Below, one piece after another: positions 2,919 to 42,200 of a stretch of DNA of 64,000 nucleotides (its first letter is position 1; each line of letters begins with the position of its first letter). This stretch comes from Chrysoperla carnea (Eukaryota > Arthropoda > Insecta > Neuroptera > Chrysopidae), in NCBI RefSeq assembly GCF_905475395.1, contig NC_058337.1, positions 29,226,983 to 29,290,982 on the forward strand, given 5' to 3'. The position numbers and the translations under genes were made by a program. The notes beneath the pieces were generated by a model, which was not told the DNA's origin, ran no database searches, and saw only the letters and a program-made list of their open reading frames with translations.

Positions 2919-5900
2919 TTACTCATCTACATCAGATTTATAATTATCATCAGAATTTATATCGTCATTTTCTTCAACTTCCTCTGTAATTTCCACTTCC
3001 TGTTTTGTTTTTGAAACTTCTACTTGACTAGAACTATGATGGAAAACGAACGATATCACTTTTGCAATATCCCAACATTGTTTTATTGTCTAAAAAAAAG
3101 TATTTATAAAATACAGATTTTATTTGATACATGAATCGTTGCTTTGTAATAATTATTACCAAATCTGCAAGACCCTTTTTATCCCAACAATGGTACCAGT
3201 TGGATAAATCCGATGTACAATCTGAATCAGGCGGAGGAGATTTTACTTGTATTTTATTTATACACCGAGTACATTTAAATCTGAAATACATTAAATTTAA
3301 AAAAAAATAATGTAAATGTAAAAGTATTCTAATTTTATTTTATTTACTTGCTATGGGTATCAGAGAGCGTATCTTCTTCTAATTTAAAAAGTTCTCTTAA
3401 ATCTGAAAGAGTAAAATGTCGTTCACAATCGTCGTTGTTATCAACAACTGTCGAACTTAATGCCTTTTTATGCGCTTGTCGTTGGAAGATTTTCTCTTCG
3501 ATAGTTCCTGTCTGAAAATATGACATCGATTATTAATAGACCGGTTCTTAGCCGAAAAATGGGTCGGACTAGACGCAAGTCACACCAATTTTTAATATTT
3601 CTTTAAAAAACATTTCTAGCCTACTCCGAGAATTCTCATTCACGTTTACTTCGTTTTTTTTTTTATTTCGTAAATTGAATCTAATCGCTGTTTATATCAA
3701 AGATGAAGATTTGGGCTGGATTTTTACATAGTTTGCGGACGAGACAAATTATTTTAAAAATTATCTTTGTAGATAAGAATTATGATCCTTTTTAAAATCC
3801 GTTTCAAATTAAAAGTAAAGTGACAAAACCATACAAATTTGAAAAAAAAAATTTTTTAATACGCGAAAAATGTTTTTTTTAAGAATCCTAACAATTGATG
3901 TGAGTTACGCTAGGGTCGTCCCATTTACTTTTCGAACTAGGGACTGCTCTATATAAATACTTAAAAAAGAAAGGCTTTTAAATATTTTAAAGGCTGAGCA
4001 TACACGTAACGGTACACCTGTGGCACACACACGTTATGGTTTCACTTGAGAAAATATACAAAAAAGACGTGACCTCTGCTTGTGACTAGTTACCTGGCAA
4101 CTCGCCACAGCTAAGCTTAGGCCTGTACAGATTTGCCAAAGCACTCACACACACGGTCAAGTATCTTCACCTGTGCCGGCAGTAAGAATCGAATTTCGAT
4201 TCTTCTCCGGTTGCCTGCAGTGGCTGACACACATGCTCCGGTTTATCTGTACAGGTAAACCTGTCTGATATACTGTCACGTGTTTGCTCAGCCTAATATA
4301 AATATGAAAAGTTACCGCCAATAATCTGTAAATATAACATGGTTTCTTTTGTCCGTCACGCCAAACTCTAGCCATTGCTTGGTCATCATTTGCTGGGTTC
4401 CAATCGGGATCAAACATTACCAATCTGTGTAATAAAAATAAATTAGCTTTATTAAACTGTTGAGTCTTTTAGCTTAATTCTAAAACACTCTCAATTTTGT
4501 CAAAATTAGGCTAAAAAAAGTACCTAATATGTTTGTTCTGAGCGAAATTTTAAAATTTTAAAGGCGTATTGGTGAAAATGGTGAAAAATAAATATCGATT
4601 TTAATTAATATTGTTAATTGGTCATAATTTCTCTATCATATGACGATATTCGAATTAAAAAAATCATTTTATATAACGGAAACAAAAAATTACCTATTTG
4701 CGCCAATTAAATTTAATCCACAACCACCAGCTTTTGAACTTAACATAAATATAAATTCTTTGGATTCAGGTTTATTGAAATTTTCAACGACTTTCGCACG
4801 TTTTTTAATAGTCATCGTTCCATCTAATCTGACATACGAATAGTTTCTAAAAACAATACAAACATTATGAAATAAAACTTTAAATCATGTCGTTTAGGGT
4901 GAAATTCTGGTCAAGAAAACAGATTTTTTTCTGTAAATAATTTTTGTAATGAAAAAAAGTCGTTGATTTGCATCTGGCGTACTATTTGTGTAACTGTAAA
5001 AATGTATCTGCATTAGAATTTTGCCAATACCAAAATTTTTTTTAATACAAGACAATTTTTTTTAGAAAATCTCAATTTAATAAAATGATGAGTTTGAGGG
5101 GTCAATCTTTTTTTTTCAACCTTGACAACATAAAGTCCCTTTTGAATTCTCTAGACTAGAACTTGATCTTAAAATATACCTTTTATGGCTAAGTTTTTCA
5201 AATAAATCTAATGTTTGAGTGTAGTTGGAAACGAGTACAATTTTATCAGTTGTATTCATTTTAATATTCGCCAATAAACAGTCCAATACCATTAGTTTTC
5301 CGGACAATTCGGGTAAAACGTCCCTAAAATTAAAAAAATAATTAACAATGAACTATTTTAAATATACCAATAGTTTATACTTTGTAGAATAATGCGGCGG
5401 TAATAATTCTAAAGCTTTTTCGAAACCTTCAGATCTAGTCTCAATCTTATCGTAAATTAGATCGGGATGATTGCATAATTTTTTTAAAGTTGTGATTGCT
5501 GCTAATGTACTGAAGCTAGCTTTTTCCCCTGTACTTGCTGAAAAAAAATTAAAATTATGTTGAGTATACCTTTTTGGATTAACCATGCATTCCTTTATTT
5601 GCTTAGGATTCATTGCATTTAATTATTTTAAATTAAGTATCATTTCTCGTTAGTAAACCAAAACTCCGCAACCCAAAAGAAATATGTTTCAATAGTAAAA
5701 AATAGAAAATCCTTACCCCCAAATATATTTTAAATGCGAAAGTGGCTTTGTTTGTTTGTTACGCTTTTACGCAAAAACTACTGAATGGGTTTGAATGAAA
5801 CTACAATAATATAGCTCATAAATCAGAATATCCATAGGCTAAAGATAGTAGTTACCCACCCGCTTCGCGGATGATTTCAAAAACTCCTGAATGGATTTTA

Positions 5901-8900
5901 ATGAAACTCTACTATAATACAGATCATACATCAGAATAACACATAACCTATAATTTATAAAGATAGCAGTTACCCACCCGCTTCGTTGGACGATTTCGAA
6001 AATTACTGAATAAAACATAGCTTAAGACTATAATTTATAAAGATACTGATAGATACCCACCCGCTTCGCCAAAAAATTTATGTTTCAAAAGCAAAGACTA
6101 AATAGTTTGGATTTATAATAAAAAGTATTTCGAGTGTTATGGAAGAGGGATAAGTGAGAGCAAGGAAGGGGAAGGCTATAACGCGGTGGTCTTTACTTTT
6201 AAAATGGAAATTGTTCATCAATATGGGCGGGTATCATGTTGGTTGTTTGCAAATACAGAAAAGTGTGTGCAATTAATTTTCAAATCCACTCTTTTTTTTT
6301 ATAATGATGTTTCGATCTATGTGATCAGTTTTAATTAACTGTATGATAATTTCATTGGATATTAGCGATTTCCAATGGTCTTATTGTCATTAAATTTAAC
6401 TCAAAATAATCATTGAATTATTTAAAAACTATCATCTCGATATTTTTTTTTCGTCACGTGAATACGATATGAAACAGATTACGATTGCATTTATAAATAA
6501 ACTGCGAACTTCAACAGAGTAAAGTATACAAAAATTAATTAAAATTTGAAAATAAAAAAAAGGTTTTTATATGACAAACTGAGAAGTTCTATAAAATTCA
6601 AAATGTGATGAGTATATAATTCAAAACTTACTGCTAATAACAGTTTTTTTTATTGCATCGGAGTTAACAAAAGATTTGTATAATTGTTGTTGTAAAGGTG
6701 CCATCTTTACACAAATCACCATTTCGAATTTAATTGGTAAGTATTTTGTTAATAATGAGCTTGTGCGTCGAATTAAACATTTATTCACGATTTCAGTTAA
6801 TTCAGTTAAACGTTCCAAACATTTTGCACGCTCAGAATCTGTAGCGCATGCATCTTGTCCTTTAAGAATTGGTGTTTCAAAATGCTTGCGGAAATCCTAC
6901 AATCAAAATAAACGCAAATAATAAAAATATTTCAAATTTGTAATAAATTCGTTATTACCTGAGCACTACCTAAAATTCCTTCATTTACAAAATGAACTAA
7001 GCTGAAATATTCAAGAAGATCATTCTGAATGGGTGTACCACTAAGTAGAACACGTCGTTTGGCCTTTAAACCCATTAATGCTTGGTACGTTTGATTTTCA
7101 CAATTTTTTAAACGATGGCCCTAATTTAAATCGTAATTTTATATAATAAATGATTTTTAGAAAGATTTTAATCAAATACCCTTAACATTTCACATAAATT
7201 CGACTATATTCAGAAGTATTTAATAATTGGTCGATTTTAGAGTATTTTTGAAATAACAAACAAAATATCGGAATTAATCAATTATCACATCTCGTGCTCA
7301 AAATTTGAACTCTAATAACACTACGTTTTATATTTGTCCAATAAATAAGTACTTAGGCAAACATAGATTGGATAATAGAAAATCAATCGGGGGTCATATA
7401 GTAGAATAATTTCCAAGGAAATTTTTATTAATAAAAGTTAAAAGATGCAATCTAAAAATTAGTTAAAGTGAAAAAAAACCGCTTTTCGTTTAAAAATAAC
7501 AAAAGTATAAACCTAAACCGAAAAGCTGTGTATTTAATGAAATTATCAAGTGAAGATGCAGAAGGATCAGCAAAACGTCATAATTTGCGATTTTCCCGAA
7601 AGCATAACCCAAAACAAGCGGAAAAAATACGTTTTTAAAGCATTCTTAAAAATGCCAAACTAAACAAATTTTTCTTAAATAAAAACAATTACAATTTCAA
7701 TAAAAAATTTTTTAATCAAAAGTTTGATACTGATTTTTAAGACATTTTTTGAGATAAAATCGATATATTTGAGAGCTTCAATTTTTAATATGTATATAAT
7801 ATGCTTATAATATTTTACGTTCATTTTAATACAAAAATGATTTAAATCGGAGTACTCTACATTAATATGTCGAACTAATTAATATTTCTATGTAGGTAAA
7901 TCAATTTATTTGAATTGTTACGAGTATTTGATAAAGGAGATCTATCTACGTAGGGCTTATGAAAAAATACAGAAATCTACATAAAATTATTTTTTAAATT
8001 GATCTTTTTGTTAGTAATTCGTTAATTACTTCATCGCATAAAACTAATCCAATTTCACTAGTATGTAAAATTTTCGTATATAAACGAAAAGTTTCATACG
8101 AAATGATAAGTATTGGTGTAACCGGTCGACCACGATAAGTGTTCATGTATTGAGATAGTTTCTGTTCGATTTCAGCTCGAGAACCTCCATCCATAGCTAA
8201 GGCATTGACTCGTCCATTTAACCATTTTTGTATTTCATTATACCAATTCTAAAATAAAATATATATTTATGTTAGCTTTGAAAACAGTACCAGAAACCAT
8301 AATTTGTGGAACGAGTCCTCCGTACGGATAACGATAATCTGAGTTTGCTTGTTTCAGAAAATCTTTCGACATAAAAAAAACTGCTGAGAAAAAAACTCAG
8401 ATTACCATTGTCAAATCTTGGAGTGAAGCAAAAATTTAAAAAATAAAAGATTTTTTTTATTAACTCCTGTGAATACACGGAATGTATGTCTCAGAATTTA
8501 GTTTTGGTCTTTACAGTACTTACCTTTACTAATGAACTAGGTGCTACAATAATCGCTTTATCGATTAAAGGTTTGCATTCGGGGCCTTGGCGTAATAATG
8601 TCCACATTAAAGTAATACATTGTAGTGTTTTTCCCAATCTACAAATTAATATTGAATATAATTATATAACAAGTGAAAACAAACAATTGATTTAGTTAAT
8701 TGTTGAAATACCATGTATAGACAGTGTTGATTACTCTGTCACATTACACATTAATACATATCACACATATAACTGATATACCCATATAATACATAATATA
8801 CAATTTGAGCATAATTTGCGCTCTCACGGGTAAACAATGATGCTTACGAAAAAATGTTTCAAACAAAAATTGTTTATTTTTTATAAGGAACATTTTTTAC

Positions 8901-11071
8901 ACATAAACTTTTGTTCTATCTCTAACGGTTTACAAGATGGGTCCTACGGAACCAAGACCCAATTGACCTATGTTGCTCATTTATGAACTCGACCTCACTT
9001 TTTACGTCCTAAGCACGCTATAAATTTTTCAGCTTGATATCTCTTTTCGTTTTTTAATAATCGTGATGACAGACATACAGACAGACAACTGGAAATGGAC
9101 TGACTAATTAGATGATTTTATGAACACTTATACCAAGACTTTGTTCATAGTGCATTTAAATATTTTTAAGCGTTACAAACTTGGGACTAAACTTACTATA
9201 GTTTTATATATTTCATATATCGCTTTTCTTGAAACATAGTTAAGAACACTTTCATTTAAGTTCACCTTTCAAAGGCAAGGAGCTACGATGCCACAGACAG
9301 ACAAACACACATAGTGAACAAACTAATAACACCTTTCTTTTTGGATCGGGAGTTAATTATCTAGGGTAGAAAATCGAACAAAACCGTTTCATAACATACC
9401 TAAACAGGGGGAAGGATCAAATGTTGACTGACGTATTTTAGGTGATATCTTGTAACAAAATGAATGTCACATTTTTTATCTCAACTTTTTTTTTTTTTAA
9501 ATTTGTTGTTGGACGAGATGAATTTACAGTTTTTTTTTTGTATGGAAATTTACATTTTTTAAGGTTTTATTTAAAAACTGTATTTAAACACAAAAATAAA
9601 AATGACTCGATTAAAAATACATAATCGCTAATTTAAAAAAAGTTCTATTAAAACAGTATCGTTTTTTGTACACGGTGTAACGACGCTTTCGGTAGATTTT
9701 GATAGTTAACAAAAAGCACGGATCAGTAGTATATGCTGTTTCAAGATTTGACATTTTGACTTTTTCAATCTTTAAAAATAGGGTTCCAATTCAACTTCAC
9801 TTTTAAACAATTATCTTTTTAGCATTTGCATTCTTAGTATCTTTTGAACTTACCCCATTTCATCGGCCATAATACAACCATAAGTATCAGGAATTTGTAC
9901 ACCGGTTACACAATCGTACATAAATTTCACACCCTGTAAAAATGTTTTTTTCTAAAATGTAATTTAGTAAGCCTTAAGTATTTGGGTAAGAAACTTTGCG
10001 CTGTAAATTTTGCATATACTGATGCCTTAGAAGACCCAATAACATCTTTTAAGTTTCTAGAATAGTTTTAATTACAAAGCAGAATTATTTAAAATTTTTC
10101 AAAAATCTATCTTTGGAAGTTATAATATAATAAACCCCATCGCGCATCCTGCGTTCCAAGTACCAAGATATTTCCAATAAATAAAGATTTTTTGTAAATT
10201 TTAATATAGTATTGTATAAAATAATATGAGATAAGGCCAAAGGAGTAACACCGCTAGCCAATAATTTCGATTTACATGTAATAGGTGAATAAAAATACTA
10301 TGGTAGAACAAACGTAGAAAGAGTAAATATTTTCGGTTTTCGAAACTTGTCTCCAATCTCTCGACGAATTTAAAATATTTTGTTCATATTATAGACTGCC
10401 TAAGAAGTTGTATTTCATATATTTTACCTCACGCTGATGAGGACGAAGAATGTTGCTAAGTATTGGATCGACAACAACATGAACCAAAACGTTTTTCCTA
10501 AAAAATTGCGATGAAAAATTTTAGCCGATAGTACACATTAAATTTAACACAATTTTCACTTACTGATCAGCCATAAGCTTTTCATGATTGGATTGTTCGG
10601 GTGGTGAATATAAAACCAAAGCATTCGGCATTTCTGGATCATGTAATGGTCGTCGTACCATTGATTTTCGCATTCCTAATATACGACCAGATGGTACATA
10701 ATTTGGACATGGTGAATTAAAGGGTCGGCTTAATATTTTCTTAATGTGTTCCTCCTAAGTGTAACAATAAGTTATTCGATAATTAGGTACGGGAATGTTT
10801 ACTTGAAAATAACTTACATGTTCTGATGTAGACATTTGAATTTGTTGTGTAGCTGGCGAAGGTTTTGGTTTGTTTTCTTTACACGACCGTCGTTTTTCCT
10901 TTTCCATTTGTGGTGGTATAAATATTTTTTTAACATTTTCGCAATCATTATTATACTCAATAGGACGTTTTGTTTGTTGACTAGGTGCTAAACTCCTTCT
11001 CTAGGTTTTACAATTTTAAAAACAAAATTTATATAAATACATTTCCAAGTTATAATTTTAATACGAACCAT
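2919..11071 (-). CDS. Rad54/okra: Rad54 / okra SNF2-family DNA translocase, complete, 16 coding exons, 768 aa
   Basis: This is a Swi2/Snf2 ATPase that assists Rad51 in homologous recombination in the nucleus. Exons (minus): 11071-11069, 11000-10818, 10754-10564, 10497-10428, 9933-9854, 8638-8524, 8248-8030, 7120-6959, 6896-6632, 5537-5381, 5323-5180, 4846-4694, 4424-4316, 3511-3348, 3280-3160 and 3089-2919. They sum to 2307 bp. The order of motifs is N-terminal [16 protein letters not shown], Walker A GLGKTLQC, DEGHRLKN (box II), [18 protein letters not shown] (III), [43 protein letters not shown] (V) and the [20 protein letters not shown] segment (VI). The C-terminal CTRC...[13 protein letters not shown] zinc-like region is present. 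Length matches human RAD54L (747) and fly okra. The initiator ATG stands alone in its exon; an in-frame TAG directly precedes exon 2. Several introns carry repeats. Confidence 0.97.
3992..4293. mobile_element. MITE-like element in a Rad54 intron (about 300 bp)
   Basis: The ends are inverted: the left begins GGCTGAGCATACACGT and the right, read in reverse complement, begins GGCTGAGCAAACACGTGAC. The interior is clearly richer in G and C than the surrounding intron (3512-4315) and includes CA/GT runs and palindromic patches around 4180-4215. No protein can be read from it. A target duplication is not clear. Confidence 0.7.
5735..6075. repeat. Degenerate tandem repeat in a Rad54 intron
   Basis: About two and a half units of roughly 125 bp each contain an ACT-n-GAATGGRTTT-n-AATGAAACT core, then TAAAGATAGNAGTTACCCACC and a CGCTTCGYNGGAYGATTTC tail. 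The motif ACCCACCCGCTTCG appears three times. This kind of short GC-marked satellite-like repeat is common in insect introns. It lies in the intron between exons ending at 6632 and starting at 5537. Confidence 0.65.
8668..9220 (-). repeat. R1 dispersed repeat, copy A
   Basis: R1 is the most abundant repeat here. Its forward consensus runs from TTTAGTCCCAAGTTTGTAAC through CAAAAACGAAAAGAGATAT, AGCGTGCTNAGGACGTAAAA and CCGTTAGAGATAGAAC to CAATTAACTCAGTCAATTG and a TTTGTTTTCACTTG tail. This copy is in reverse orientation inside the Rad54 intron 8639-9853 and looks nearly full length. No protein is encoded. Confidence 0.8.
9228..9357 (-). repeat. R2 dispersed repeat, copy 1
   Basis: This segment is related, in reverse orientation, to 53803-53970. 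Shared marks are GTGTCTGTCTGTCTGTGGCA, ATCGTAG-GCC, TTTGAAAGGTNAA and GTTCTTAGCTATG. It abuts R1 copy A. It is not coding. Confidence 0.65.
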
Positions 11072-11426
11072 TAAAAATTATTATCACGGTGTAATTGTAA
11101 TTTACTTAAAAATTAATATTTTTTTTATATTCCGTTCAAATGTCATTTGGCTGTCAACTGTCACATTTATAAGTAATAAAATAACAAGTGATTCCCGCGT
11201 TTATAAATTGTGTGTACATAAACAGATTGCATTATGGGAGAAATTTAGCACCTGTTACATTTTCGGTATGAAAAATGGATGTAGGAAAATTACAATTCCT
11301 ATGTCCATGGTATGAAATTATTATCCAATTTTGTAAACTTTTCTAATAAGATCTACTGTCTACTGTGTCACAACTATGATTAATTCAGGGTATGATAATT
11401 TAAGTTATCATTGAAATATATATATC

Positions 11427-12360
11427 AAGGTATAGAAAATTTAGTCCCAAGTTTGTAACGCCTAAAATAATATTATACAGAATGTTCGATTTACATCTAG
11501 ACATTATAAATATCACGAGTATGACAGAGTACATGCGTTAAGTAATGCATCTAAGTAAGAGGTATTATAGGTGTTATATGAAATTGCAAAAGTGATTTGT
11601 ATCGTGGCTTATCTTTTGTAATTCATCTTTTCAACTAAGAAACTCTCACTCTCCAAGCGTCTTACAACTATCTCAACGCATATCGAAGCTTCGACACTGT
11701 CATACTGTCATTATTCTGTCATACCCGTGATTCGTATAAAATCACCTAATTATTCCATTTCTGGTTGTCCACCCGTCTGTCTGTCCGTCCGTCTAGACTC
11801 TAGACGATAACTCAAAAACGAAGAGATATTCAGCTGAAATTTATATAGCGTGCTTAGGACGTAAAAAATGAATTTGAGTTCGTAAATGAGCAACATAGGT
11901 CAATTGGGTGTTGGGTCCGTAGGATCCATCTTGAAAACCGTTAGAGATTTAACAAAATTTTAAGTATAAAAAATATTTTTTATAAAAAAACAACTTTGGT
12001 TGGAAATATTTTTTCGTAAATAGCACTGTTTACTCGTGAGGGCGCAATTATTTGTTAGATTTTGTTGATTAAGATATAATCAGTAATTTTTAAAAGGAGA
12101 TCAAAATCCTGTAGAAATTTGATAAAAAAAGTTCCATAAATTAAGGCAAGTAAGGACCTAATTTTAAAAAGCAAAAATTTTCTGATTGAATATAGAATGT
12201 ATTCCGAAATTACAAATTTGGTTTTTTTTCCCAGAAAATTGTTGATTTTTTAAAGTCTAATTTATTAAAATTAATGCAAACATTGGCCATTCAACACTTT
12301 CTTCTATACAGGGTATTTCAACAATTAGCTCATTCAATTGTTTGTTTTCATTGTTTATTT
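11427..12360 (+). repeat. R1 dispersed repeat, copy B, interrupted
   Basis: It starts at TTTAGTCCCAAGTTTGTAAC (about 11439), carries ACTCAAAAACGAAGAGATAT, CCGTAGGATCCATCTTG and GAGGGCGCAATTA, and resumes at CATTCAACACTTTC to the family terminus near 12355. About 200 bases of foreign sequence follow the first 50 bases. The left arm of the 193-bp inverted repeat occupies its variable middle. Confidence 0.75.
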
Positions 12361-12749
12361 GAATTTGAATTTATGAATTTACCTTGAATTAATGTAATTT
12401 CAGTAAAAACAGTCAGAAATTGGGAATATTTTTTTGAATAATATTATTTATATTTTTTCTTTAAAAAAAAAATATAATTCCTGTCACCCAATACACACTT
12501 GTGAGTAAATTACAAATCGATCATTTTTAGTATATGGCAATATAATGGCAAAGGAAAATTTTCTGGGAAAAAAAACCAAATTTGTAATTTCGGAATACAT
12601 TCTATATTCAATCAGAAAATTTTTGCTTTTTAAAATTAGGTCCTTACTTGCCTTAATTTATGGAACTTTTTTTATCAAATTTCTACAGGATTTTGATCTC
12701 CTTTTAAAAATTACTGATTATATCTTAATCAACAAAATCTAACAAATAA
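12048..12749. repeat. Perfect 193-bp inverted repeat with 316-bp spacer
   Basis: The arm at 12048-12240 and the arm at 12557-12749 are reverse complements over 193 bases with no mismatch or gap that I could find. The spacer (12241-12556) includes the 3' end of R1 copy B. Transcription across it would give a hairpin of about 193 bp. No gene is present; a 65-codon frame at 12545 is a by-product of the right arm. Confidence 0.9.
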
Positions 12750-13527
12750 ATGAACGGATAAGAATAAGGCTTTCTTCGAAATGTTGTCTTCCAAACGCAA
12801 GTATAATAATAATGGGATTTAACCTCCGTTTTTCTGGCATACGCCTATAACAGAGGCCACCCACAACATTATTTGTTAATCTTTATGTATTAAATTACAT
12901 TCATATTTTACAATTACATTTATGATGTGGGTGGAATCGGTTACTTCGTTCAAAGACTAACGCATTATACCGCTCGGACATTTAGGCCAAGCGCATAGAA
13001 GTTCAAAATTAGTTTATTATATTGTTAAATTTTACAATGTTCAGTACTAAATATCTTACTATATAGTTTCTCTTCCTAGCCTAAACTTTATCTATAATAC
13101 ATCATTTTATTAATTAAATTCATCGCGATATTATAAATATGAATACATCGTTATAAAATAGAATAATTTATCGAAAAAATCATTGGTTTGAACCCAATTT
13201 GAATATGATATTTAAAAGTAATTATTTCTAGCTTCTGAGCTTCAGTTTTAGAGAAATTTGAAAAAGAAAAAGATAACACCCATAATTAAGGTATATTATT
13301 TTGTTCAATAGAGGAATTTTCAAAAAATGAAATATGTTATAAATAAACATTGATTGTTAGACCTCAATTTCTTGCGGTTTTCTACAATCAAACTTTTGAT
13401 ACCAAAACGGAAATAAATAATAAAACTGGAAGATAATGTATTAGCCGCATAATGTATTTATTTTTAACTTTATGTTTGGTAAAAAATCATTTCATGATAC
13501 TCATTATAACGTAAAACATTCAAAAAG

Positions 13528-15715
13528 ATGGCGGAATTAAACGCAGACAATGAAAAGATTTTAAAAAGAGATTCGACTGAAATTATTAAAATTGGTATTG
13601 ATAACAGTGACAATGTGAGTTTAGAAGGTAAAGAAAGCATTTTTAAATATTATTATTAAGCTTTTATAATTATGATGAAATGAAATAAATTAAAACAGAA
13701 ACAACAGGAACAGAATTAATTGAAGAAAATAAGCAAAGTAAAGAAACACTCGGAGAAAATTTAGAAAATCCTCTAGAAATAGAATCTCAAGTTGATAGTG
13801 CTGATGGAAGGAGGCGAAATAAAATCAATAATAATACTTATGTAGCCAAGAAAACTGCGGCCCAAGGTGAGTGAAATATTTTCTGAATAGACGTGCTGCA
13901 ACAATCAAAAGAAAAAAATCAACTTTTGACAATCGGACAAAAAAAAAACTGTTTTAGATTTTTAATTTTATTTATGAAAAACAAGAATTTTATTCAAAAT
14001 TTCTTTTCTTTTTATACGACCCTTACTGTTGGAATCGAAGCAATTAAGTTTGCAATTCTATATGACTTTTTATGGGACCCGACTCAAAATGTTCAGATGA
14101 GTGTGTAGAACAAAGTCATATTGATTAGAAATATGTGCTCTTACTAGTCGCACTCTTACTCGCGCTCATTGGATCTTATATTTTAGGGTATTCTAAGCAT
14201 TTTTATATTTATCTCGTGTCATTTTTTTTCTAAAACTCACCGTTTTTGAGATAAAAAAAACAAAATCTAATTTTAAGGAAAAGTTTTATATTGTCGAAAT
14301 TAACGGTTTATTTCGATCAAATATTTGACTTGAAACTTTTTGCTTTTTCTCATATTTTGGATGATTTTAAACAATTTTTGTTTCTTGACTCTTTTTCCCT
14401 CATCTCACCGTTTTTGTTCATATAAGCGTATTTTTAAGCTAAAATTTTGTCATCGACAAAATTGACGGTTATCGTATGATTGTGATCAAATATTTGATTT
14501 AAAAACGATTGAAATTTAAAATTTGGACTATTCTCAGAACTTTTTGAGTCTTGTAATTTTTCAATTTACCTCACCAATTAACTCAGTCAATTGTTTGTTT
14601 CCACTTGTTATACCATACATATAAAATATATCAAGGTATACTAAGTTTAGTCTCAAGTTTGTAACGCTTAAAAGAAGACCTACGGACCCATCTTGTAAAC
14701 CGTTAGAGACAGAAGCAAAGTTTAAATGCAAATATGTTCCTTATAAAAAAATAAGCAACTTTTGTTTGAAATATTTTTTGTAAACATTACTGTTAACCTA
14801 CGAGGGCGCTAATTAGGTGCAAATTTTATAGTATGTATTAATATGGGAATATCAGTTATGTGTGTGTGGCTATTTAAGAGTAGATTTCTTTCTTTATTTA
14901 CGTGCCATCAAAAAATAAACGATTGCGTCATCAACACTGTCTATACATGGTATTTAAACAATTAACTCAGTCAATTGTTTGTTTTCACTTGTTTGTTGTT
15001 TATTAGCTGGTGGAGCTTTTCTTTAACAAAATAATCTTTTACTATATGAAAACAGTGAGAGTATACTTTACCTAGCTATAGTTAACTTTAACTAGTACAT
15101 GTTGATCAAATTTCAACACTTTTTGGTTTTAATAAACTTTTAATAAAAAGATCAGTATCAGTCGACTTTACATAGGATTAGGAAGAGTCTCTTACTGGAG
15201 GATCAACTATTTCTGTAACATTTACATCGATATGGTTTTTCAGATAAACGTTTTATTTTCTGAATTTAAGAGAAGCTGTGTTAATAAGATTTTAATAAAT
15301 ATGAAAGAAAAAAATTTGATGAAAAATTTATGTCGTTATGTTGGATCTTTTTTTATAAACCATAATTTGAAAAGCGCTGATTTTTCTTACAGGATTAATG
15401 GATATCGCATTATTAACAGCAAATGCAAATCAATTACGTTACATAATTGAATACAGTTCATCAAATTTAACATTTGCAATTAATATTACATTAATTTGTA
15501 TATCATTATTATTACAAATATTTGTTGGTATAACATTGGCATTTCAAGGACGTTTCTATTATCGAGGTGAATCAAAGAAGAAAAGTTGTAAGAATTTAAA
15601 AAATTATATTATTATAGGCGTATTTTTAATAACACTTGTTAATGTATTTATTGCTAGTTTTACACAAATTGTACCACGTGATCAAATTATAGCCGCTAAT
15701 AGTAAAAGTAAATAA
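13528..15715 (+). CDS. Ninjurin, complete, 3 exons, 196 aa
   Basis: Ninjurins are small double-pass plasma-membrane proteins. They were first known in adhesion, and NINJ1 also drives plasma-membrane rupture in dying cells. Exons are 13528-13627, 13699-13866 and 15393-15715 (591 bp, phase 1 at both joins). The first about 75 residues are hydrophilic and acidic, as in insect ninjurins. The conserved core begins YVAKKTAAQGLMDIALL, TANANQLRYIIEY, followed by two membrane segments (around LTFAINITLICISLLLQIFV and YIIIGVFLITLVNVFIASF). An amphipathic stretch lies ahead of the first segment, matching the YASKKSAAESMLDIALLMAN core of the vertebrate family. A second acceptor CAG nine bases after the first at exon 2 would remove three residues without a frame change. 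The stop overlaps an AATAAA at 15711. I cannot assign it to NijA, B or C. It is divergent to Rad54. Confidence 0.93.
14200..14560. repeat. Degenerate duplication in ninjurin intron 2
   Basis: Two related blocks of about 170-190 bp follow each other. Each has CTCACCGTTTTTG, a stretch with GTCGAAATTAACGGTT or CGACAAAATTGACGGTT, then GATCAAATATTTGA. It is intronic and non-coding. Confidence 0.55.
14618..14995 (+). repeat. R1 dispersed repeat, copy C (internally deleted)
   Basis: The copy keeps both family ends (GTTTAGTCTCAAGTTTGTAA and CAATTAACTCAGTCAATTG plus TTTGTTTTCACTTG) but lacks about 190 internal bases. A second, short terminal fragment of the same family sits just upstream at about 14575-14610. 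It lies in ninjurin intron 2. Confidence 0.8.
15000..15170 (+). repeat. R7 direct repeat, copy 1
   Basis: This segment matches 16780-16960 in the same orientation, sharing TACCTAGCTATAGTTAACT, TACATGTTGATC and AACACTTTTTGNTTTTAATA. It lies in ninjurin intron 2, while the second copy lies beyond the gene. It is non-coding. Confidence 0.7.
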
Positions 15716-19398: not shown

Positions 19399-19980
19399 AT
19401 TGAATTCATTAAATATTCGCATTGTGAGTCGCTAACAAATTAATGAGACTTAAAAACGTTTAGGTAATACAGAAACAAATGTTTTACTCTCCGAAAACTA
19501 CCATTTCTCAAAGTTTTAGAAAATTTGCCCGAAAGACATTTTCCATAAGGATTCGGGTGTGTAATTTCAAATTTTCTGTTTCTGAACATTTCAAAGTGTT
19601 TAAAGTTTGTAAATGTTTGATTTATAAGATAGAAAATATAATCAGATGTTAATAAAATACGACAAAAATATTTTTTAATACTATAGTTGTTTCTGTTACA
19701 AACACAATACTCTACTATATTGTTGCCGTAGGTATATACTTATAAATTAAACATTTACAACGTTTAAACAATTTTTAGAAACAGAAAAATTGAAATTACA
19801 TAGCGGAATCATTATGGAAAATGTATTTCGGTAAAATTTTCTAAAACTACTAAGAAAAATGTTAGTTCTCGAAGAGTAAAATATAAGATTTATAAAATAT
19901 TTTTTCTGTATTATCTATAAACGTTTTAAGTCATTAATTTTTTAGCGACTCACTATGCGAAAATTAAATAAATGCAATTG
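19399..19980. repeat. Fold-back element, arms about 220 bp
   Basis: The left arm (from about 19399 to 19630) and the right arm (from about 19740 to 19980) are inverted relatives. Matching landmarks are CGCATTGTGAGTCGCTAA against TTAGCGACTCACTATGCG, and ACATTTTCCATAAGGATTC against a diverged partner GAATCATTATGGAAAATGT. Identity looks like about 80%, so it is an older MITE-like element. Confidence 0.75.
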
Positions 19981-23456: not shown

Positions 23457-23960
23457 ACTCAGTATGCATGGTATTTCAACAATTGATTCAGCCAATTGTT
23501 TGTTTCAGCTAATTTATAAATTAAAATTTGTCATGAGCTATGGAGAAAAATAGAACATTAAAAAAGTTACTATTTGTCGAATTTGACTGGTTGAAAATCC
23601 GTGCGGTAATAAACTATCTTATCCCAAGCAAAATAAGTGCGGTAAAGTAATTCTTATCTCAAGAGCGTAGATATATATTTCCGTTTCTATACCCTCCACT
23701 TGCTCGCCAACACGATAAATCAAAAACGAAAAGAAATATTGGCCTGATATTTTATAGCAGCGTACTCAGGGCATAAACAGTGAGTTTGAGTTCGTAAACC
23801 GGCAACAGCAGACCCATTGGGTTTTATAAACATTTCTAATAAAGAAGTAAACAACTTTTAAATCTTTTTAAATCTAAAAAAATAATACAAGCACAAGCAC
23901 TAATATTCAATACTGTCTATATAGGGTATTTCAACAATTAACTCAGTCAATTAATTATTT
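23457..23960 (+). repeat. R1 fragments, copies D and E
   Basis: A terminal piece at 23457-23510 carries CAATTGATTCAGCCAATTG and TTTGTTTCA. A longer, diverged copy runs from about 23690 to 23960 with AATCAAAAACGAAAAGAAAT, GCGTACTCAGGGCATAAA and the terminus CAATTAACTCAGTCAATTA. Both are in the forward orientation. Confidence 0.7.
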
Positions 23961-24886
23961 TAACTTACTTATTTTTATTATTTTCAATTAAATAGTTATT
24001 ACCCATTTATGGAAGAAAACATTATGAATCATCAGTACTTGTATGTAGAATAGATGAGCGGAAACTTACCTTGACTGACATGACGCGTTTGAGACCACAA
24101 GCTAATTAAAAGTTATTTAGGTTTTTATGTTTTCAAGTTTGTTCACAAAATTGAAACATGATCTTGGCTCATTTTTGCACCTTTTCTAGTTTACACTTCC
24201 AGGTCCTTTCCACTAAGTGATTATTTAATAGTATTACAGTAATAGGTACTTAGAAGTCCATATTTTTTACCAAATATTTTATGTTTTAATGTGTGCAAAT
24301 ATATTAAATTTTATTTAAAATTAGCCTTACCGACCCGCCCACTTTGAGAAACACTGGTATATAATCGTATCCTCATGGTCAACATCAAACATTTCTTATG
24401 CAGGAAAATCCAAGGTGTCCGTCCTGCGGAAACAAGAAATTGCAATATTCCGAGTGTCTGGAGATGGCATCCTGTTTTGTATAATATCGAACCTATTGAC
24501 TTTTCTATTTGTTACTTATTATTAGAATAACAACAACAAAAAACGGTTAATAATCCATTCATTCTCCAGAATCTTCCCAAATATAAATTGTTTAAGTCTT
24601 GCCATAACAGAAGCCATGATAATATATAGTGAAAAAGTTACGAGAGGACTTGACCCGAGTGAAAATATTTTGGAGCCCTGCAAAAAGAACTTTTTTGGAG
24701 AATTATCGTAAATAAAGATTGTTCTAGATTTACCATAACGAACCACATCCGAAGTGCTAGTAATCACTTGTGCAAAAGACCTAGGACTATTCTGCAGTCT
24801 TTTTGAATGCGGGCACATAAATCATTGAATTATTTTGACCATTTTTGCTTTATAATTACTATTACTAAAAAAATAAATAATAATGG

Positions 24887-27690: not shown

Positions 27691-28255
27691 AAAAACAAAT
27701 GACTGAGTTAGTTGTTGAAATACCGTGTATAGAAAACATCAGTACTAATTCAGCAGTCAGCATAATTTTTGGTTTTTGAATATTCCGAAAATTAAAGTAT
27801 TTTCAAAAACTTTTCTTCGTATTTCAAGAATCTTTTACAATACTACTACTTGAAGCTATCTGCAAATTTTCAATTTCCTATCTTTTATAGTTTTGGAGAA
27901 AATGGACACCAAAATTTGGTTATAATTTGTACCGTCACGGATAAACAATAATGTTTAAGAAAAAATGTTTCAAACAAAAGTTGTTTATTTATAAGGACCA
28001 TATATTACATTTAAACATATTTTATATCTCCAACGGCTTACAAGATGTGTGCTACGGTCCCGACATCCAATGGAACCTATGTTGTTCATTTACGAACTTA
28101 AACTCACTTTTTACGACCTGAGCACGCTATAAAAGTTTCGGCTTATATCTTTTCGTTTTCGAGTTATTAACGTTGTCGTGATCGCGGACGCACTAATTAA
28201 GTATCTGTATTCTTTGGTATCATCAATATTTCTTACAAACTTGGGACTAAAAAAT
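27690..28255 (-). repeat. R1 dispersed repeat, copy F
   Basis: It is in reverse orientation. The terminal block is CAAATGACTGAGTTAGTTG, and the far end is TACAAACTTGGGACTAAA near 28255. Its variable middle (about 27760-27930) differs from the other copies but resembles copy I in the words ATTTTCAATTTCCTATCTTT and ATAGTTTTGGAGAAAATGGA. Confidence 0.75.
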
Positions 28256-30325: not shown

Positions 30326-30513
30326 CAAAAGGGAATATGAGGTACTGTGAAATAGCTACAATATTTGTATGTTATTCCAAAAAAATTTCGAATCCAATTA
30401 CAGAAAATTTAATTAAGTCATGATTTCATAGTTCTGTGAAATTCGGTTCGAAATTTTCTTGGAATAAGATACAAATATTACGCTTGTTTCACTGTGCCCC
30501 ATGTTCCCCTACT
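30326..30513. repeat. Short fold-back element (about 190 bp)
   Basis: The arms match in inverse orientation: TACTGTGAAATAGC and ACAATATTTGTATGTTATTC on the left, and GCACAGTGAAACAAGC and TAATATTTGTATCTTATTC on the right arm read in reverse complement. The outer ends are AAGGGAATATGAGG and AGGGGAACATGGGG. It is non-coding. Confidence 0.7.
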
Positions 30514-31869: not shown

Positions 31870-32112
31870 CTATGAAACTTACACGACCATTATTTACCAC
31901 GAATTCTTTTTTTGATAATTTACGTTATAAAAAAATTAAATTATATTTATTGATACAGTTATTCAAAACAATAACATCCAGTCAAGAGTTCAAGACGATT
32001 AGTAATCACTTGAAGTTGTTTAAAAATGTATATGAATTATTATTAATTCTACTTGTATCCCCTACGGTAATGCCATCCAAATTTGAGTTGGTCGTACTTC
32101 TCTTAGAAAACA
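31870..32112. repeat. R17 dispersed repeat, copy 1
   Basis: It is related to 44995-45195. Shared words are ATAACATCCA or GTAACATCTA, AATCACTTGAAGTTG or AATCACTTGAAATTG, TGCCATC and TTGGTCGTACTTCTC or TTGGCCGTACTTCTC. It is diverged and non-coding. Confidence 0.55.
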
Positions 32113-33007
32113 AGTGAATTGACTTAGTTAATTGTTGAAATACCATGTATAGACCAAAGAGGTTATATACGTAGAGAACGCCAGTGTCCAAAACTTACGA
32201 TATGCGGAGCGAGAGAGAAGACTGTCAGTGAGTTCCCCTGTGTTCTTTTCTAATCTATATATCGTTGACTACATATTGATTACATTATTACAAATCTCTA
32301 TGCATCATATGATTGTGACATATGATTATGATAAGGACACAAGGGAACTCACAGGCTAGCAGATTTCTGGCGTTTTCTATCTGTATTATCTCTATATGCT
32401 ATAGACAGTGTTAATAATACAATCGTTTGCTTCTGACGTCATGTAAATAAAGAAAAATAGTCACTCTTACACACAAAGTAATGGAAGCATCTTTCATCTC
32501 ACTTCCTCAGTGGAAATGTTAATTAACAAGCACATATATACATACAATAAGTGTATATTTGATACAATACAATAGATGTATAATTTTTTAACCTAATTTG
32601 CGCCCTTTCGGGTAAACAGTGATGTTTACGAATAAATGTTTCATACAAAAGTTGTTTATTTTTTATAAAGGAACATTTTTTACATTTAAATTTTAGTTCT
32701 ATCTCTAACGGCTTACAAGATGGGTCCTACGGACCTAAGACCAAATTGACCTATATTGCGCATTTACGAACTTAGCTTCACTTTTTACGTCTTGAGCACG
32801 CTATAAAAAATTTCAGTTTGATATCTCTTTTCGTTTTTGAGTTATCGTGTCCACAGACAGACAGACGGATAACCGAAAATGGACTAACTAGGTGATTTTA
32901 TGAACAACTATACCAAAATTTGTTTGGTAGCATCGATATTTTTAAGCATTACAAACTCGAGACTAAACTTAGTATACCTTGCATATTACATATATGTATG
33001 GTATAAA
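32108..33007 (-). repeat. R1 dispersed repeat, copy G, split by an R3 insertion
   Basis: It is in reverse orientation and close to full length. The terminal block at 32108 is followed after about 40 bases by the R3 element (32155-32399), then the copy resumes at TATAGACAGTGTTAATAATA and runs to ACTAAACTTAGTATACCTTG and TATGTATGGTATA near 33000. Confidence 0.85.
32155..32399. mobile_element. R3 MITE inserted in R1 (245 bp, TATAGAC duplication)
   Basis: The 7 bases TATAGAC occur directly before (32148-32154) and after (32400-32406) the element, and R1 is continuous across them. The imperfect terminal repeats are AGAGGTTATATACGTAGAGA and, from the right end, AGAGATAATACAGATAGAAA, both running into AACGCCAG. 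An inner inverted pair is GTGAGTTCCCCTGTG with its complement CAAGGGAACTCACAG. A target duplication of 7-8 bp suggests hAT-like mobilisation; this is inference. Confidence 0.85.
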
Positions 33008-33222
33008 AAGTGAAGGTCCATTGAATCAGTGTGAATCTATCAATAAGTAGCTCATTCCAACACTAATATTACTAACTATATAAAATAAATATAATACGAT
33101 AGTTTCTAATTTTTCCTAAAATAAGGAGAAAACACGTTCTGTTTTTTATTATCTATTTTTAAACATAAATAATTTCATAAAATATTTTTTGTGTCATTTA
33201 TAGAAATTACATTCCAACAACA

Positions 33223-36200
33223 ATGGAGCAAATGAAGTTTATTGTTGTCGTTTTTGTTGCGTTATGTGGAATATATTCAACTGTAGAAGCACAAGATAAA
33301 GTAAGTTGTTTGTATATTATTTTTTATCGAGTCCTATTTTATTTTAATTTTATTACTTGCGATGAATATTTTTTGAGTGTGAACTGGCAAAGTTTCGAAA
33401 TCAAGGATAATTTATTTTGATCAAAATTTTTACAAACTTTTTATAAATTTAGCTTAACTTTTCTACCGGTAGTCGAGGAAGGTGTTTAAAACTAACTTTT
33501 TTAATGAAATGATTTTGATCCAACGCGGTTCATTTTGTTCGTAATTGTATTAAGTCCCTTAAATTAGTTTGTGATACTTTCCAATTCCCTTTTTTGGACA
33601 TTCGACTATTATGCCCCAGAGTTCCCGAAACGTATTAAAATAACAAATGAAGATAAAAATATCATTCTGGGAACTTTTGGGGTCGCTAAATTCGAATCTG
33701 ACTATAAAAAAATGAGAAATTTCTAAATGACGGACGGATTTTAAATTTCTAGCTATAAGCCCCCTTCTGACTCCCGGTAATATAAAACGCAATAATATTT
33801 TAAGAAAAAAATATTGACCTGGGGGTTTTCGAGCTTGGTGAATCCAAATTTGAAATTTTAAAATGGAAAAATTCCAAATAGGGGCCGGAAAATTCAGTTT
33901 TTTTGCAAAAAAAAATTATATTTTGACCAATAAAACACAAATAAAGTCAGTATTGGCCGCACACTCAATTTCTCTCTTTCTAGAGTGTGGTAAATTTCAT
34001 GAAGATAAGTCCATTCTCTATGTCTATGATTATGACAAACAAATAATATAAATATGATGGAAATGTTGGAAAACTAAATTGCTTTTTTCTTATACCGTCT
34101 CTTCTATCATTACCATATGTTAATGTATAAAAAGGGACTTATTTTTGTTCGTTTTTAAAATAGCGTCATAATTTTGTCACTCAAAGCTGATCTTTCAAGT
34201 GTCAGAAATTCAGTATTATTATATTCCCTGTGAAAAAGGCGTTAATTTTAAAGTGAAAAATTTGTCTGAACAAAACATACATGTAATACTACTATATTGC
34301 CACCCACTTTGTTCTTCTATGAGAGAGATCGGCGAAAACAAGCTAAACAGAGCAAAAGCCAGAATTGTGCCTTCTTTATCTATAGGACATTTACTATGGC
34401 GCCACTACTACTATAAATTTTATGAAGCCGCGCATGTGCAAAAAAATCACAGTCCTTTGATTATTGAGTGAAAGGAATATATCATCTGCACCGTGATATT
34501 TTCGCCCGTATCTCACACTCTGCTGGCAATATAGCAGTATTACATATATGGAAACATAGTGTTATCTTTTTAGGATACGGAACACTAAAAACGGTTTTAA
34601 CTAATTACTGACCGGAGACCACAAAATACTGGAAATCAATAATAATATTTTTTTTATGGTTTGTGGTCTTTAAGCCAAAAAATGAAATCATTGAGCGTTA
34701 CTATTTTTTACATTTTGAACAACTTATAATTGATGCGAATAACTCATATGACCTCATAAATCCAGCAAATAAGTTATTTATTATTAGTCGATTTTCGTTA
34801 AATTCTGAAACGAGCAGAAATGATTTTCGGGACATATATACAGGGTGGGCCATTTTAATCTATGCATCTGAATATTTCATTTTTTAGGTAACTAATAAAA
34901 AAATAACTTAAACAAAAGTTGTAGAATTTGATGGGGGACATCATGTTCTGACATTAGATTTCAGCTAGTTTTTCGGATTTCTTTAATAACTAATTTAGAT
35001 CCTAAACGGTAAGAGCTAAGAGATAGAATAACACTTTAAATTAGAAAGTTTATCCTCATAAAAAACTGTTAATTATTGTTTATAACATTTTTTCGGAAAA
35101 GATTAGCTTTCGAAGGAAATGCGACTTAAAAATAAAAGCCATGGACACAGACGAATGCCGTCTATTGTCCTTGACAACTTCTGGCTAGAGCATTTTTGAG
35201 TAGTTATCGTGAAAGCTGACGATTTTCGAAAAAATGGTTTGCATAAAAAACGTTTTTTTTTTATAGGGATCAACTTTCTAATTTAAAGTGTTATTCTATC
35301 TCTTACCGTTACCGGATCTTAATCTGCATTTTTTGTCCAAGTTATTTTTTGATTAGTTAACTAAGAAACGAGATATTCAGATGCATAGATTAAAATGGCT
35401 CACCCTGTATATAAGATGTTTTTTTTTAAGTTGACATATGCTTGAAACTTCAAACAAAAAGTGTTTGGGTTTTTATAAAGAACAACTTTCTATGAGAATG
35501 AATTTTCAAATTTAAAGTGTCCGTCTAAGAGTTGTCAGTTATGAATCAAATCGAGATTTTAATTGAACCTGAAAACTTCGAAGATCGAATTAAATACTTG
35601 TACAAGGTGTGTAACTAACATTTTTCGCTTGAAGCATTTTCCTCGATTAATCTTTTTTTTCGAGGCTCACGTATACAGATATCTTCAAATCGACAAATCG
35701 AATGTGCTTGAAAATATGTGTTGCTATTTTGAAAAGCGGCCGACTTAATCACCCAACATTTTTTTGGAGGGTTTAAAGCTGTTTTGCGTCTAATCGACCT
35801 GATAATTTGCAAAAGTAATCTCTGTTTAAAAAAGAAACACAGCTCAAAATATTCCCTTTTCTAAACTTTCGGGTACAATACCTCAAAAGCGATTCAATTT
35901 AGGCCAAAATCCTTCTGGTAATATTTGACTTTAAAAATTTTGTAATAAATGTAACGCATAAAAATTTTTAGGTCGATCAGACGCAAAATAATTTTCAATC
36001 TCTCCAAAAAAATGGTGGTGATAATTTGACCACTTTCCAAATTGGTGACATGGGGTACTTCATTCATATCAAGAAAGCCCCCCGAAAAAAAAAACTACGG
36101 TCAAAAAATTTCGACACTCATGCGCCGCTCAATACTGCACTACTTTATAAAATCAATTAAATTTGATACGATTATGTAATCTGTAGATATTGAAAAAATT

Positions 36201-39200
36201 TTTCGAATCATCATTTTCGTATCAAATTTTCCTTCAAGTACGTATTTTAACTGGCATTTAATTGATAATTATTAAATTTTTGAAAAGAAAATTAATTACA
36301 CTATTTATTATTTTTGCTAACGCTCAGTTCACAGTTTCTCCAACTATGATAGGTTCAATATTTATTTTTTCAATATTTAATATGGATTTCAGTGGAAATA
36401 CCTTTCGCTTGCATTACCTATAAATGCAAACTACTATTTCATATCTGGTTTGGAATATTTAATATATGAAAGCGCTTTTCGTAGTCAATGGATGCGCTTC
36501 TATGGGTACACCAAAATTTTTCTTTGGTGGTGGCAAAAATCAATCAGCACTTTTCGTAGTCAATGGATGTTTCCATGAGTACATCAAAATCTAGATTCTA
36601 AAGACGATAAACAATTCAGTGTTTATTTAATCAATATGAATTTCTAACAATTCAGGGAATCATTAGCCACTCTGCTCATATCTTATCCACATTTGCTCGC
36701 CATCTGAGTTTGGTACTTATGTAACTTGCGGTAAAACTAAAATTCAGAAGTTCCTGGTTCTTCATCGAATCTTATCTGTGATTGCAACGAAACCATCGTT
36801 AATAGCTCAATTTATTCATATAACACATTACAAATATTCTTTAAAAAGTTAAAAATAAACATGTAAAAAATTACCAACAATTACAGTAACACACTTACAA
36901 AAAATAAATAAAAATAAATACAAAAATTATCGCAAAATCGAAAAAATTAATTTTTAAAGACAACCAAATTTTCTGTAACCGTTTACAACAAATTATTTAG
37001 TGGGTTTGAAAAATTCCTTTATCAACCGTAAATTACGTTACAAAAAGTTTAGTGGTCTTAAAAAATTTATTTTTTCGATTTTGTGATAATTTTTGGAAGT
37101 GTAACTTAATGTGTTATATTAATAAATTTTTAACTTTGTAAAGAATGTTTGCAATGTGTGTTATATTAATAAATTTATTTACTGACGATGGTTTCGTTGC
37201 AATCGAAATATCAATATTTAGCGAAATATAAGTCTGTTGTATGGATTTAATTATATTTTTTAAATAAAATTTTTTAATATAAAATTTTATTTCGAGTATA
37301 GTGGTATTGATTTTCAATAACTTTGTCATAATTCAATGTCGACAAAAATTCATCTTTATATCTCTTCAATATGTTTTACCAACCCTTAATCATAAATTTC
37401 CGGGCTATATTATTCAACTCACATATTTTATGTAAAATAGATCTAAATTAAGTTATTATTTTGTCAAAAAAGTTTTTGAGAACTATTAAATTGTTGTGTA
37501 AATTATAAATATATAAAAAATGAATCATTATTCGTAAATAAAAAAAAAAAAAATATGACTCACATAACATTATGAATGATCGTTAATGAAATTGCATTGT
37601 TTTCAATAATTTATTTCAAGGTTAATGAAATAATTTTCTAAATAAGCAAATTTTCCATTATTTTACTCTCCTACATTATCTGATATTAATTTCAAAACAC
37701 CTTATGGTACAATTTTTCCAAAAACTTCCATATATCATTTTACAATACTGGAAAGTTTCTGTTATGAAATATTTTATTATTATAAACAGAATATTTATTT
37801 TTCACAACTTTCATTCAATATTGATAATTATTTTAAATAAAAATCGTTAGTGAAATCCCTATTATAACTGTTCACGTTGGCGATTATTTTGGTACAGAGA
37901 ACTGTGCAACACACAGCCTGCTACCAAAGTTGTTATTTCTTTCAATAATTTTATAAAAACTTGACGACAATTTTTACATTTTTGGATGGTTCGAAAAGTC
38001 TCGAAACTGATATCCAAATACTGCTTCTCGTGGTAATGATTCATTTCAATGGATTACATAAATGATTCATTTAGTGAATCATTGATTCATTTAGAGAACC
38101 TAACTTTACCTCTAACTTATCCGCTCTATATTCTACGCTCAATATAGACATTGCTTGGTTTGAAAACCCATATGTTATCCATCAACCCACTTGCCCTCGC
38201 TTAGCCCGCCCCCTCAACATCAACTTTATTCCCACCCCCTTGGAACATAGCGAGTCCCTTAAAGAATGAAATAAAAAAGTGATACATCAAACTTTTGTTT
38301 TGAATCGTGAGCACATATATATTAATTTTTACATTTCTAACTTCAAAAACGACAAAGTTTCATATAAAAAGACACCCGCTATTTTATCCCCTTGAAGAAT
38401 AAATTTTTTGAAAATAGTCTTACAGTAAACTTTTGTTTTGATCCATGAGCTCATATATCATTTTTTACATTTCTAACTTCAAAATTGACTAAGTTTCACA
38501 CAAACTTAAAATTCTCATTTTAACTTTAGGGGATGCATCTTTTGAAAATAGTCCTTCAGTAAACTTTTTATTTTGAAACTTCAAAATTAACAAAGTTTCA
38601 TACAAACTTTCAACCCTCATTTAAGCCTCTTAGGGGATGAATTTCCAAAAATCTCTTCTTACATGAATACTTACGGCTTTTAAGAAACATGTGTACAAAA
38701 TTTTATGCTTCAACCCAGAGGTTTCAGCCGTGCGTTGATCAGTCAGTCTGTCAGTTTCTTCTTTTTGTAGATATAGATTTTAATACCAAATTTATCTTCT
38801 TTCCGTATCCACCGTTTTCTCTAGATTTGATCTCCAGCGACTAATATTTGTTCACAAATTCGGAGAATACGGTACGTCCGAAATACGAATACAAGTGCAA
38901 TTTATGTAGATATGCCATCATTGTAAATATAAGGGTATGAATATGCTAGTGAAGTCGCCATCAATGTGCCAATATTGGGACATTTCGAATAACACGTTAT
39001 ATATCTTCTTGAGTATTCTGATTATCAATAAGCTTTGAAAAATTATATATATTTAGTAACTTTTCGAATTCAAGATCTCTTTTTTAACGCAGATTTTTTA
39101 TTCAAAATTTTTAATTCTTATTTCTTTGTTTTTAGGTATCTGTTGCAGTATACTACGAATCACTATGTCCTGATAGTATTAAATTTATTACTAAACAATT

Positions 39201-42200
39201 GTACCCAACATTACAACATGAAAATCTTAATAAATACATTGATTTGAAATTGGTGCCATACGGAAAATCATCAGTAAGTTACTTTATTTATGGACCTCTG
39301 ATATATAAAAGAATATCCATGATTATATAGTGCGCGGTTTTTTATTTGATATAAAAACGGTCAATAATGAAAAGAAAGATGATACGTTCATGCAACCGTA
39401 ATCATTACCTCGAAGGTATACATAAAAGATGGAACACCGAAACGGAATAGAAATAGCTCTACAATTTGTTAAAAGATGTGGGCGTTGGTCCTATTCATTA
39501 AGCCGGTTCTTCTTCGAAAGTGAAAAAGATAGCTTTCTGATCTTTGGCTTGATAGTCATAAATTGGCTATCCTCCGCGGACTACGTCTGCCATAAACTAA
39601 AATATATTCACTTTTAAATTTAAATATTTTTAACGACCTTTAAACGACTGACTTTACTCTTGCGCAGTGCATGTGAGCAAATATAACTTAATATATATAT
39701 ATATATATATATACAGTTGAGTTTACGTTGTGTTTGTGTTTTCTAGAACTTGAAAAATAAAAACAAAACTTAAGGTAGTACCTACACGAAAGTGATATTC
39801 CAAGAATTTCTCAAAACTCAGAATATAAAATATTTAATTCATAATACACTTGCTGTTAAAATTAGAAGATGATTTACCATGCCATACATGAGATATTAGC
39901 AATTAAAAGTGACGCAATTTGTACGTGTACATGGGAGAAGTGTATAAAAATACACAAATTTACAAATATTATATTTATTTACCAATGAATGACGTCCACC
40001 ATCTCTATGAAAAACTAATATAATGTAGAATACTATATTTAGAAAATATATAAATAAAAATAAAAATTATTTACCATATAGTTTCGATAAAAAACTTAAA
40101 TAAATAACTCGTTTTAGCGATGATTTTTGTGGAAAAGATATGAAGACTAATGTTAAAGGCATATGTCATAGTGTGTGTGCTTATATGTATACTAGAAACA
40201 GTAGTGAGGAACTACAGTCTTTTGAAAATAATATATGGTATATGTATAATAGTCATAGCACAGTTAATGCACTGAATGATAGTATTAGTCCAAAACTTTT
40301 TGACTGGACGGTCGCGGAGGAACTACCTTAAACGCAAAACTCTTGTTTCCATCAAGCGGCTTGCATAAACAAAAAAACAAAACTCCAACGCAAAACAGGC
40401 CACCTCAAATAGTTTGTAAATGCAGTTTTGTTTTATTCGATACGAGTTTGTGTTTTGTTTTTGTAATTGTCCGTTTATTGGAAAACCGACTAAAAGTATA
40501 CGTTTCATAATTTGTTCCAAAATAAAAGCCGTATTTCGAATCATTTTCTTTAACAAAGTGCAAATTTAGTAAATATTTTTTATTTAATTTATAGCAAGAA
40601 TTTTCATCAGAAGGTTGGAGATTTATTTGTCATCATGGACCAAATGAATGCTACGGAAATAAAGTTCAAGCATGTGCATTATCATTGTCCAAGGATAATT
40701 CTAACATCGTTAGCAAAGAAGTTGTTGGATACATTAATTGTTTGATGTCCAAAGTAGACAAAGATTCGAATCCATTTACTTACCCAACCAAAGAGGTAAA
40801 ATATTGTACTAATTTTAACAACCAATAGCAATATGACGAAGGTAAACAGTAAGATCCCCACAAGAGAGGGGTGGACGAAGATTAGAGCGATCCTCAACTT
40901 TTTTATTTGTTAGCAAAATTAGTTCTAAATTAAATACATTTAAAAACTCAATAAAAAATTTACCAAAAAAAAAAAAAAACAGTTCGTTTGAAAGTTTTTA
41001 GTTTCTAGTATAAAATACAGAAATTTTATATTTAAAATTTGCATTGTAAAGGTAACCCTACGCCTACAGAATAGGAATGGACAAATAATTTTAATCGGAA
41101 AAATTTAATTTATTAACATTTTTTAAATTTTAGTGCGCATCAGCAAACAATATTCAAAATGTGGTTCAAATTGAATCATGCGCAAATGGAACTGAAGGTT
41201 CCACCGCTTTACAACAATTGGGAGTTACAACTCAAAGTTTACGACCTGAATTAAAATCTGTACCAACAATTATATTTGATAATGTAAGTATTTTTTTAAA
41301 TATTTTATTAAATATGTCTTTAATTCAAACATTGATATTTTTTATCGAATTTGCATCAATACGTGAATTCATATGTTTCTTTGAATTTCTTTTGTATTAA
41401 TACAATAGTCAAAATTGGTTATGTCCCAAACGGCTTTTTACTTTTCATTATTATTATATTGATCAGACTCGTCCGCACGAGGGAGGAGGGTTGGAGTCAA
41501 CACCCAGCTCATTGAATTGACTAACTCCACATAAATTTGAACTAACAATTGTTATATTAATATAGTCCTGTAAATGCAGTCATTTATGAAAGGCATTTCC
41601 ACTGTCTATTTAGCTGTTTCAACATTTGTGTACATTTATTGATTTTTTATTAGATTCAACGCTCGAATGTACAAATTGATTTAGTTGAAGATTATTTTCA
41701 AGTTACAATCTAATACTGTATATCGATTTGTTTCTGACACAATTACAAGATCGATTTTAGAATCATCGTAATATTTTATAAATTTTTGTATGTCTCTTTC
41801 CCAACAAAATGAAACATTTTGATGAAAACTCTTGCGCTCATCTTTTTGAACAATACTCTTCAATTTTAGACAATGATTTTTGTGATATCTGGGTATTTGG
41901 GTCAACGTAGTTAAACTATGGCGAAAACCAATTGTCGGACAGTACGTCAAAAATTCACTCGATATTTGCACTGATATGCGTTTCCAAATGTCTACCAAAT
42001 GCTTCACGTTCTTGCTGTTTTGCCTGTGACAACAGCGACGACTGAACTCTACTTTTCAACTTTGCGTTGCAATACCTGAAGATCGACTAAACAGTTCAGC
42101 CTCGTTCAATAAACATTGCGATGTAGAGGACGATAAAGAGTCTGTTGTTTTTTTAACATGATGAAAAAAAGTTTGACCCCCCCCCCTTTCCTGTGCATGT

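Follow-up and report, generated by a model that had tools for sequence, protein, structure and literature searches.

A perfect 193-base inverted repeat between a RAD54-like gene and a ninjurin gene, probably a recent templated inverted duplication

Fold-back transposable elements and MITEs carry long inverted arms around a spacer, and perfect inverted repeats can also be created by chimeric reads or by misassembly. Template switching or templated repair has been proposed as the origin of short inverted duplications, for example at the Drosophila subobscura inversion O7 loci, in a report that also presents inversion with staggered breaks as one proposed route to inverted duplicates at inversion ends (PMC7584159). 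In a yeast study (PMC8604942), repeats with template switching have shorter spacers than others, the spacers studied there being at most 70 bases. In Drosophila simulans, a report on hairpin RNAs (hpRNAs) describes very young inverted-repeat hpRNA loci, one of them with arms of transposon sequence, and in most of the newly found loci that it describes the arms match a target, a transposon in one case (PMC10317233). The locus described here lies in a 64-kb window of Chrysoperla carnea, the window being the whole stretch of DNA that was analysed. Like the O7 loci as they are described, it is a sharp-ended inverted copy of local DNA; unlike them, it has a spacer without inversion, and junction microhomology is not evident (PMC7584159). 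Its spacer is also long beside those reported for the template-switching repeats of yeast (PMC8604942).

The initial annotation had described a perfect 193-bp inverted repeat with a 316-base spacer, and computed alignment returns exactly these coordinates and this identity. In a self-search of the window, the left arm (12048-12240, plus strand) and the right arm (12557-12749, minus strand) are exact reverse complements at 193/193 bases, with the 316 bases of spacer at 12241-12556 between them. Outward, the arms can be extended by three more bases with one mismatch (12045-12240 and 12557-12752, 196 nt, 99%). The identity ends abruptly at both arm ends, the zone of diverged arm beyond them measuring 3 bases at most; the outer flanks of the two arms are mutually unrelated, and so are the inner flanks. 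The arms have a G+C content of 23% in a window whose DNA is A+T-rich, and for independent bases at the window's composition the chance expectation for such a perfect arm pair is about 10^-94. The repeat is by far the longest of its kind, as the second-longest exact inverted match in the window spans 34 bases. The remaining inverted matches have identities of 66-89% (self-search, E below 1e-10), which agrees with the earlier statement that the other fold-backs in the window have diverged arms. Six palindromic fold-back stretches (19399-19978, 30331-30508, 35007-35314, 36780-37204, 43101-43502 and 49653-49888) have arm identities of 66-76%, and none of them matched the perfect repeat in the self-search.

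Apart from matches to a dispersed repeat, R1, that reach 12047-12051, the arms matched each other alone, so they belong to no dispersed family within the 64 kb; a self-search with 11001-13500 at E up to 1e-3 found no third copy of the 193-base unit in the window. A 28-base match of part of the arm at 14321-14348, with 79% identity, is taken as chance. Searches with Rfam (gathering thresholds) and ARAGORN gave no matches. The 61-codon open frame that runs through the arm is ordinary: among 3000 pieces of 193 bases sampled from the window, 15% do equally well. Pfam, searched up to E 0.1, gave no match to the 77-residue frame enclosing it. The arm is also absent from the tandem-repeat list of the window. 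Among other repeats, the window holds a tandem repeat at 59529-59606 (38-base unit, 2.1 copies, 100% identical) and two 562-base copies, at 39770-40331 and 52148-52709, that are 99.5% identical. Each 562-base copy is flanked by TTAA and has the inverted ends TTAAGGTAGTACC / GGAACTACCTTAA, and the pair looks like a recently active non-autonomous element of piggyBac type.

The inverted repeat sits between two divergent genes, as had been noted: one is RAD54-like and lies on the minus strand, the other is a ninjurin gene on the plus strand. The putative first exon of the RAD54-like gene is an open stretch at 10755-11000 on the minus strand, which we place there on the strength of a presumed N-terminal motif; the exon itself has no family match above the cut-off. 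Helicase parts of the gene are found on the same strand at lower coordinates, with RAD54-like matches against solved structures at 6621-6896 (E 5.9e-25) and 5353-5619 (E 6.3e-13), and with an SNF2-related domain in 6621-6896 and 7994-8245. The ninjurin gene (13528-15712, plus strand; Pfam Ninjurin, E 3.6e-28) has its conserved domain within 15371-15712, and its ATG at 13528 is proposed by eye. Other genes that Pfam identifies in the window are GILT and a rhodopsin-type receptor, and the gene content as a whole indicates an animal, probably an insect.

What makes the history of the repeat partly legible is R1, which has a (GTCY)n stretch, a conserved block with a majority sequence ending GAGGGCGCAAATTA, a middle that is variable and a 3' part that is conserved. 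The window contains seven copies with a body, whole or partial, at 8651-9220 (8.7k), 11412-12360 (12k), 14602-15005 (14.8k), 23710-23980 (23.8k), 27693-28167 (28k), 32106-33012 (32k) and 61452-61904 (61.7k), with an additional fragment near 50.1k. Another 3' end of R1, a separate one at 14556-14676, immediately precedes the start of the next R1 copy, which suggests that R1 units are arranged head-to-tail. R1 is reminiscent of mini-me/DINE-1 type elements. Three R1 words had no match in the literature text searched, and exact R1 words are absent from viral_contigs and genome_contigs, a result that says little as these collections are without animal genomes as such. In the 12k copy, the 5' part (11412-12047, plus strand) has its (GTCY)n at about 11775-11794, and its conserved block reaches 12047, at the very start of the left arm. 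The 3' part of this copy (12263-12360) lies within the spacer and points the same way as the 5' part, so that the two keep the relative orientation that they have in other copies. The left arm is thus inside the R1 copy and the right arm about 200 bases past its end, and the initial annotation was correct in placing one arm in the middle of R1 and the other outside it.

We consider it probable that the feature is a recent, local, short, templated inverted duplication. In this history, the end of a break or a nascent strand that had stalled, lying a few hundred bases away, would have switched to the opposite strand, 193 bases would have been copied backwards, and a second switch back, or a joining, would have left the inverted copy; no function would be needed. 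The two outer flanks are unrelated to each other, and so are the two inner ones, which is what a pair of separate switches or joins would produce, and the arms would be identical because the event is young. With mutation rates of 1e-8 and 2.9e-9 assumed, zero differences in 386 site-copies put the 95% upper bound on the age at about 0.8 to 2.7 million generations. The annotation had offered a choice between very recent origin and conversion or selection; recency fits the absence of differences in 2 x 193 bases, and neither conversion nor selection is needed, since a copy younger than this bound would show none. Counting against templated duplication are the lack of clear junction microhomology (0 to 2 bases by eye), the length of the spacer, 316 bases where the repeats studied in yeast had at most 70 (PMC8604942), and the conflicting signals on the direction of copying. 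We infer the mechanism, the young age and the lack of function alike, and the duplication is probably neutral.

Which arm is the source and which the copy is undecided, with weak results in both directions. Beyond the conserved block, 5/5 other R1 copies resemble each other (leave-one-out fractions at most 0.0024), whereas the 12k copy resembles them with a fraction of 0.31, which is not significant; a separate test of whether R1 continues into the beginning of the left arm was likewise not significant (fractions 0.12 and 0.22). Because the 12k copy lacks likeness where all five others agree, R1 seems to be interrupted at the start of the left arm, and this sequence comparison suggests that the left arm, or something within it, was inserted into R1. 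The innermost 36 bases of the left arm (12205-12240) suggest the opposite, as they weakly resemble the R1 middle in 2/4 copies (fractions of 0.003 for 28k, 0.003 for 61.7k, 0.34 for 14.8k and 0.27 for 8.7k; the 32k copy, with its long insert, was left out). Since the 28k and 61.7k copies resemble each other here, they are not independent. A right-anchored test gave 0.002 for 28k, 0.016 for 61.7k, 0.056 for 14.8k and 0.30 for 8.7k. When the stretch is prolonged to 12205-12262 the fractions are 0.02 and 0.02 for 28k and 61.7k and 0.60 and 0.50 for 14.8k and 8.7k, and 12241-12262 alone has no R1 likeness (0.38-0.67), so the resemblance to R1 may stop at the edge of the arm. The stretch 12205-12240 was singled out only following a free alignment; in a scan of 260 positions it is the best at 18 bases (0.001 per position, non-significant after correction), and it is not the best at 24 or 30 bases. 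By eye, AATTA occurs at 12046-12050 and again at 12208-12212, and the likeness of 12205-12240 would imply a small insertion in R1 between these two sites. The whole arm has no likeness to the R1 middle beyond that of shuffles in 5/5 copies and both orientations, in a test that omitted the 12k copy itself as well as the 23.8k copy, which is without that part. The earlier view of the repeat as an inverted duplication and not the usual end of a transposon stands, and on its further claim that flanking DNA of R1 was duplicated the source-arm tests point both ways.

The apparent interruption of R1 is relevant to a different history, in which a small mobile element of about 193 bases was inserted twice, independently and in opposite orientations. 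The likeness to R1 ends at the start of the left arm as it would at an insertion, and young mobile elements are present in the window in the form of the 562-base pair. Against this, the third copy that a mobile element might have left is absent from the 64 kb, the 193-base unit has, by eye, no inverted termini or target-site duplication common to both places, and two insertions with identical ends within 0.5 kb would be a coincidence. We regard two insertions as unlikely.

We think it equally improbable that the repeat is an artefact of assembly or library preparation, even though perfect inverted repeats are known to come from such errors. A single fold-back chimera would run on after 12749 as the reverse complement of the sequence that precedes the left arm, but the actual sequence there is unrelated and holds no reverse complement of R1. 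With the single chimera thus rejected on the unrelated outer flanks, an artefact would require two separate false joins.

The arms might instead be kept as the long stem of a young hairpin-RNA locus, whose transcript would be diced into siRNAs against a target. The strand does fold with a stem through nearly the whole of the arms (-330.6 kcal/mol against a shuffle mean of -114.9, n=20), in keeping with the annotation's proposal that a transcript through the repeat could form a long hairpin, but such a stem is a consequence of the repeat and adds no evidence of its own. In arm size (one such locus has about 200 bases of homology) and in the potential for a long stem, the locus resembles hpRNA loci described in Drosophila, which count in favour of a hairpin locus by their youth and against it by the target-matching arms that most of them have; unlike those loci, the present arms have no target homology within the window (PMC10317233). 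Elsewhere in the window the arm's longest exact match measures 14 bases, a length that is also typical of shuffled arms (mean 14.25, maximum 17, n=60) and of pieces taken at random from the window (median 14, n=100), and the open frame through the right arm is without a Pfam match. We judge such a locus to be very unlikely, and the arms to be a possible, candidate source of siRNAs. A bolder version, which we rate as extremely improbable, is that one inverted duplication gave rise to a newborn hpRNA gene between RAD54 and ninjurin that is already transcribed off a divergent promoter, with siRNAs against R1-type repeats or a gene of unknown identity.

It is also highly improbable, in our estimation, that the inverted repeat is older and that its arms were made identical by conversion or template switching. 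Template switching is described as homogenising the arms of inverted repeats in yeast (PMC8604942), but the identity here stops abruptly at both ends with next to nothing of a diverged arm beyond, and youth accounts for the data with one event.

Two further candidates fail on the arrangement of R1. A 702-base fold-back transposon or MITE dropped into R1 is rejected, as the R1 3' part would then lie outside the right arm and is instead found in the spacer; the long inverted arms flanking a spacer are common to this locus and such elements, but here the spacer holds part of R1, no further copy is present in the window and no target-site duplication is seen by eye at the outer ends of the 702-base unit, save a TA within the arms. 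Had the spacer been inverted through staggered breaks, the R1 3' part would be reversed, yet the R1 pieces are colinear, so the spacer is not net inverted.

With the dispersed repeat R1 serving as a ruler, the locus is a clean example of what appears to be a young inverted duplication. Possible side effects are local instability and, in the case of transcription, double-stranded RNA. If the arms are transcribed, the duplication would illustrate how the birth of a hairpin-RNA gene begins; if they are not, it would be ordinary genome turnover.
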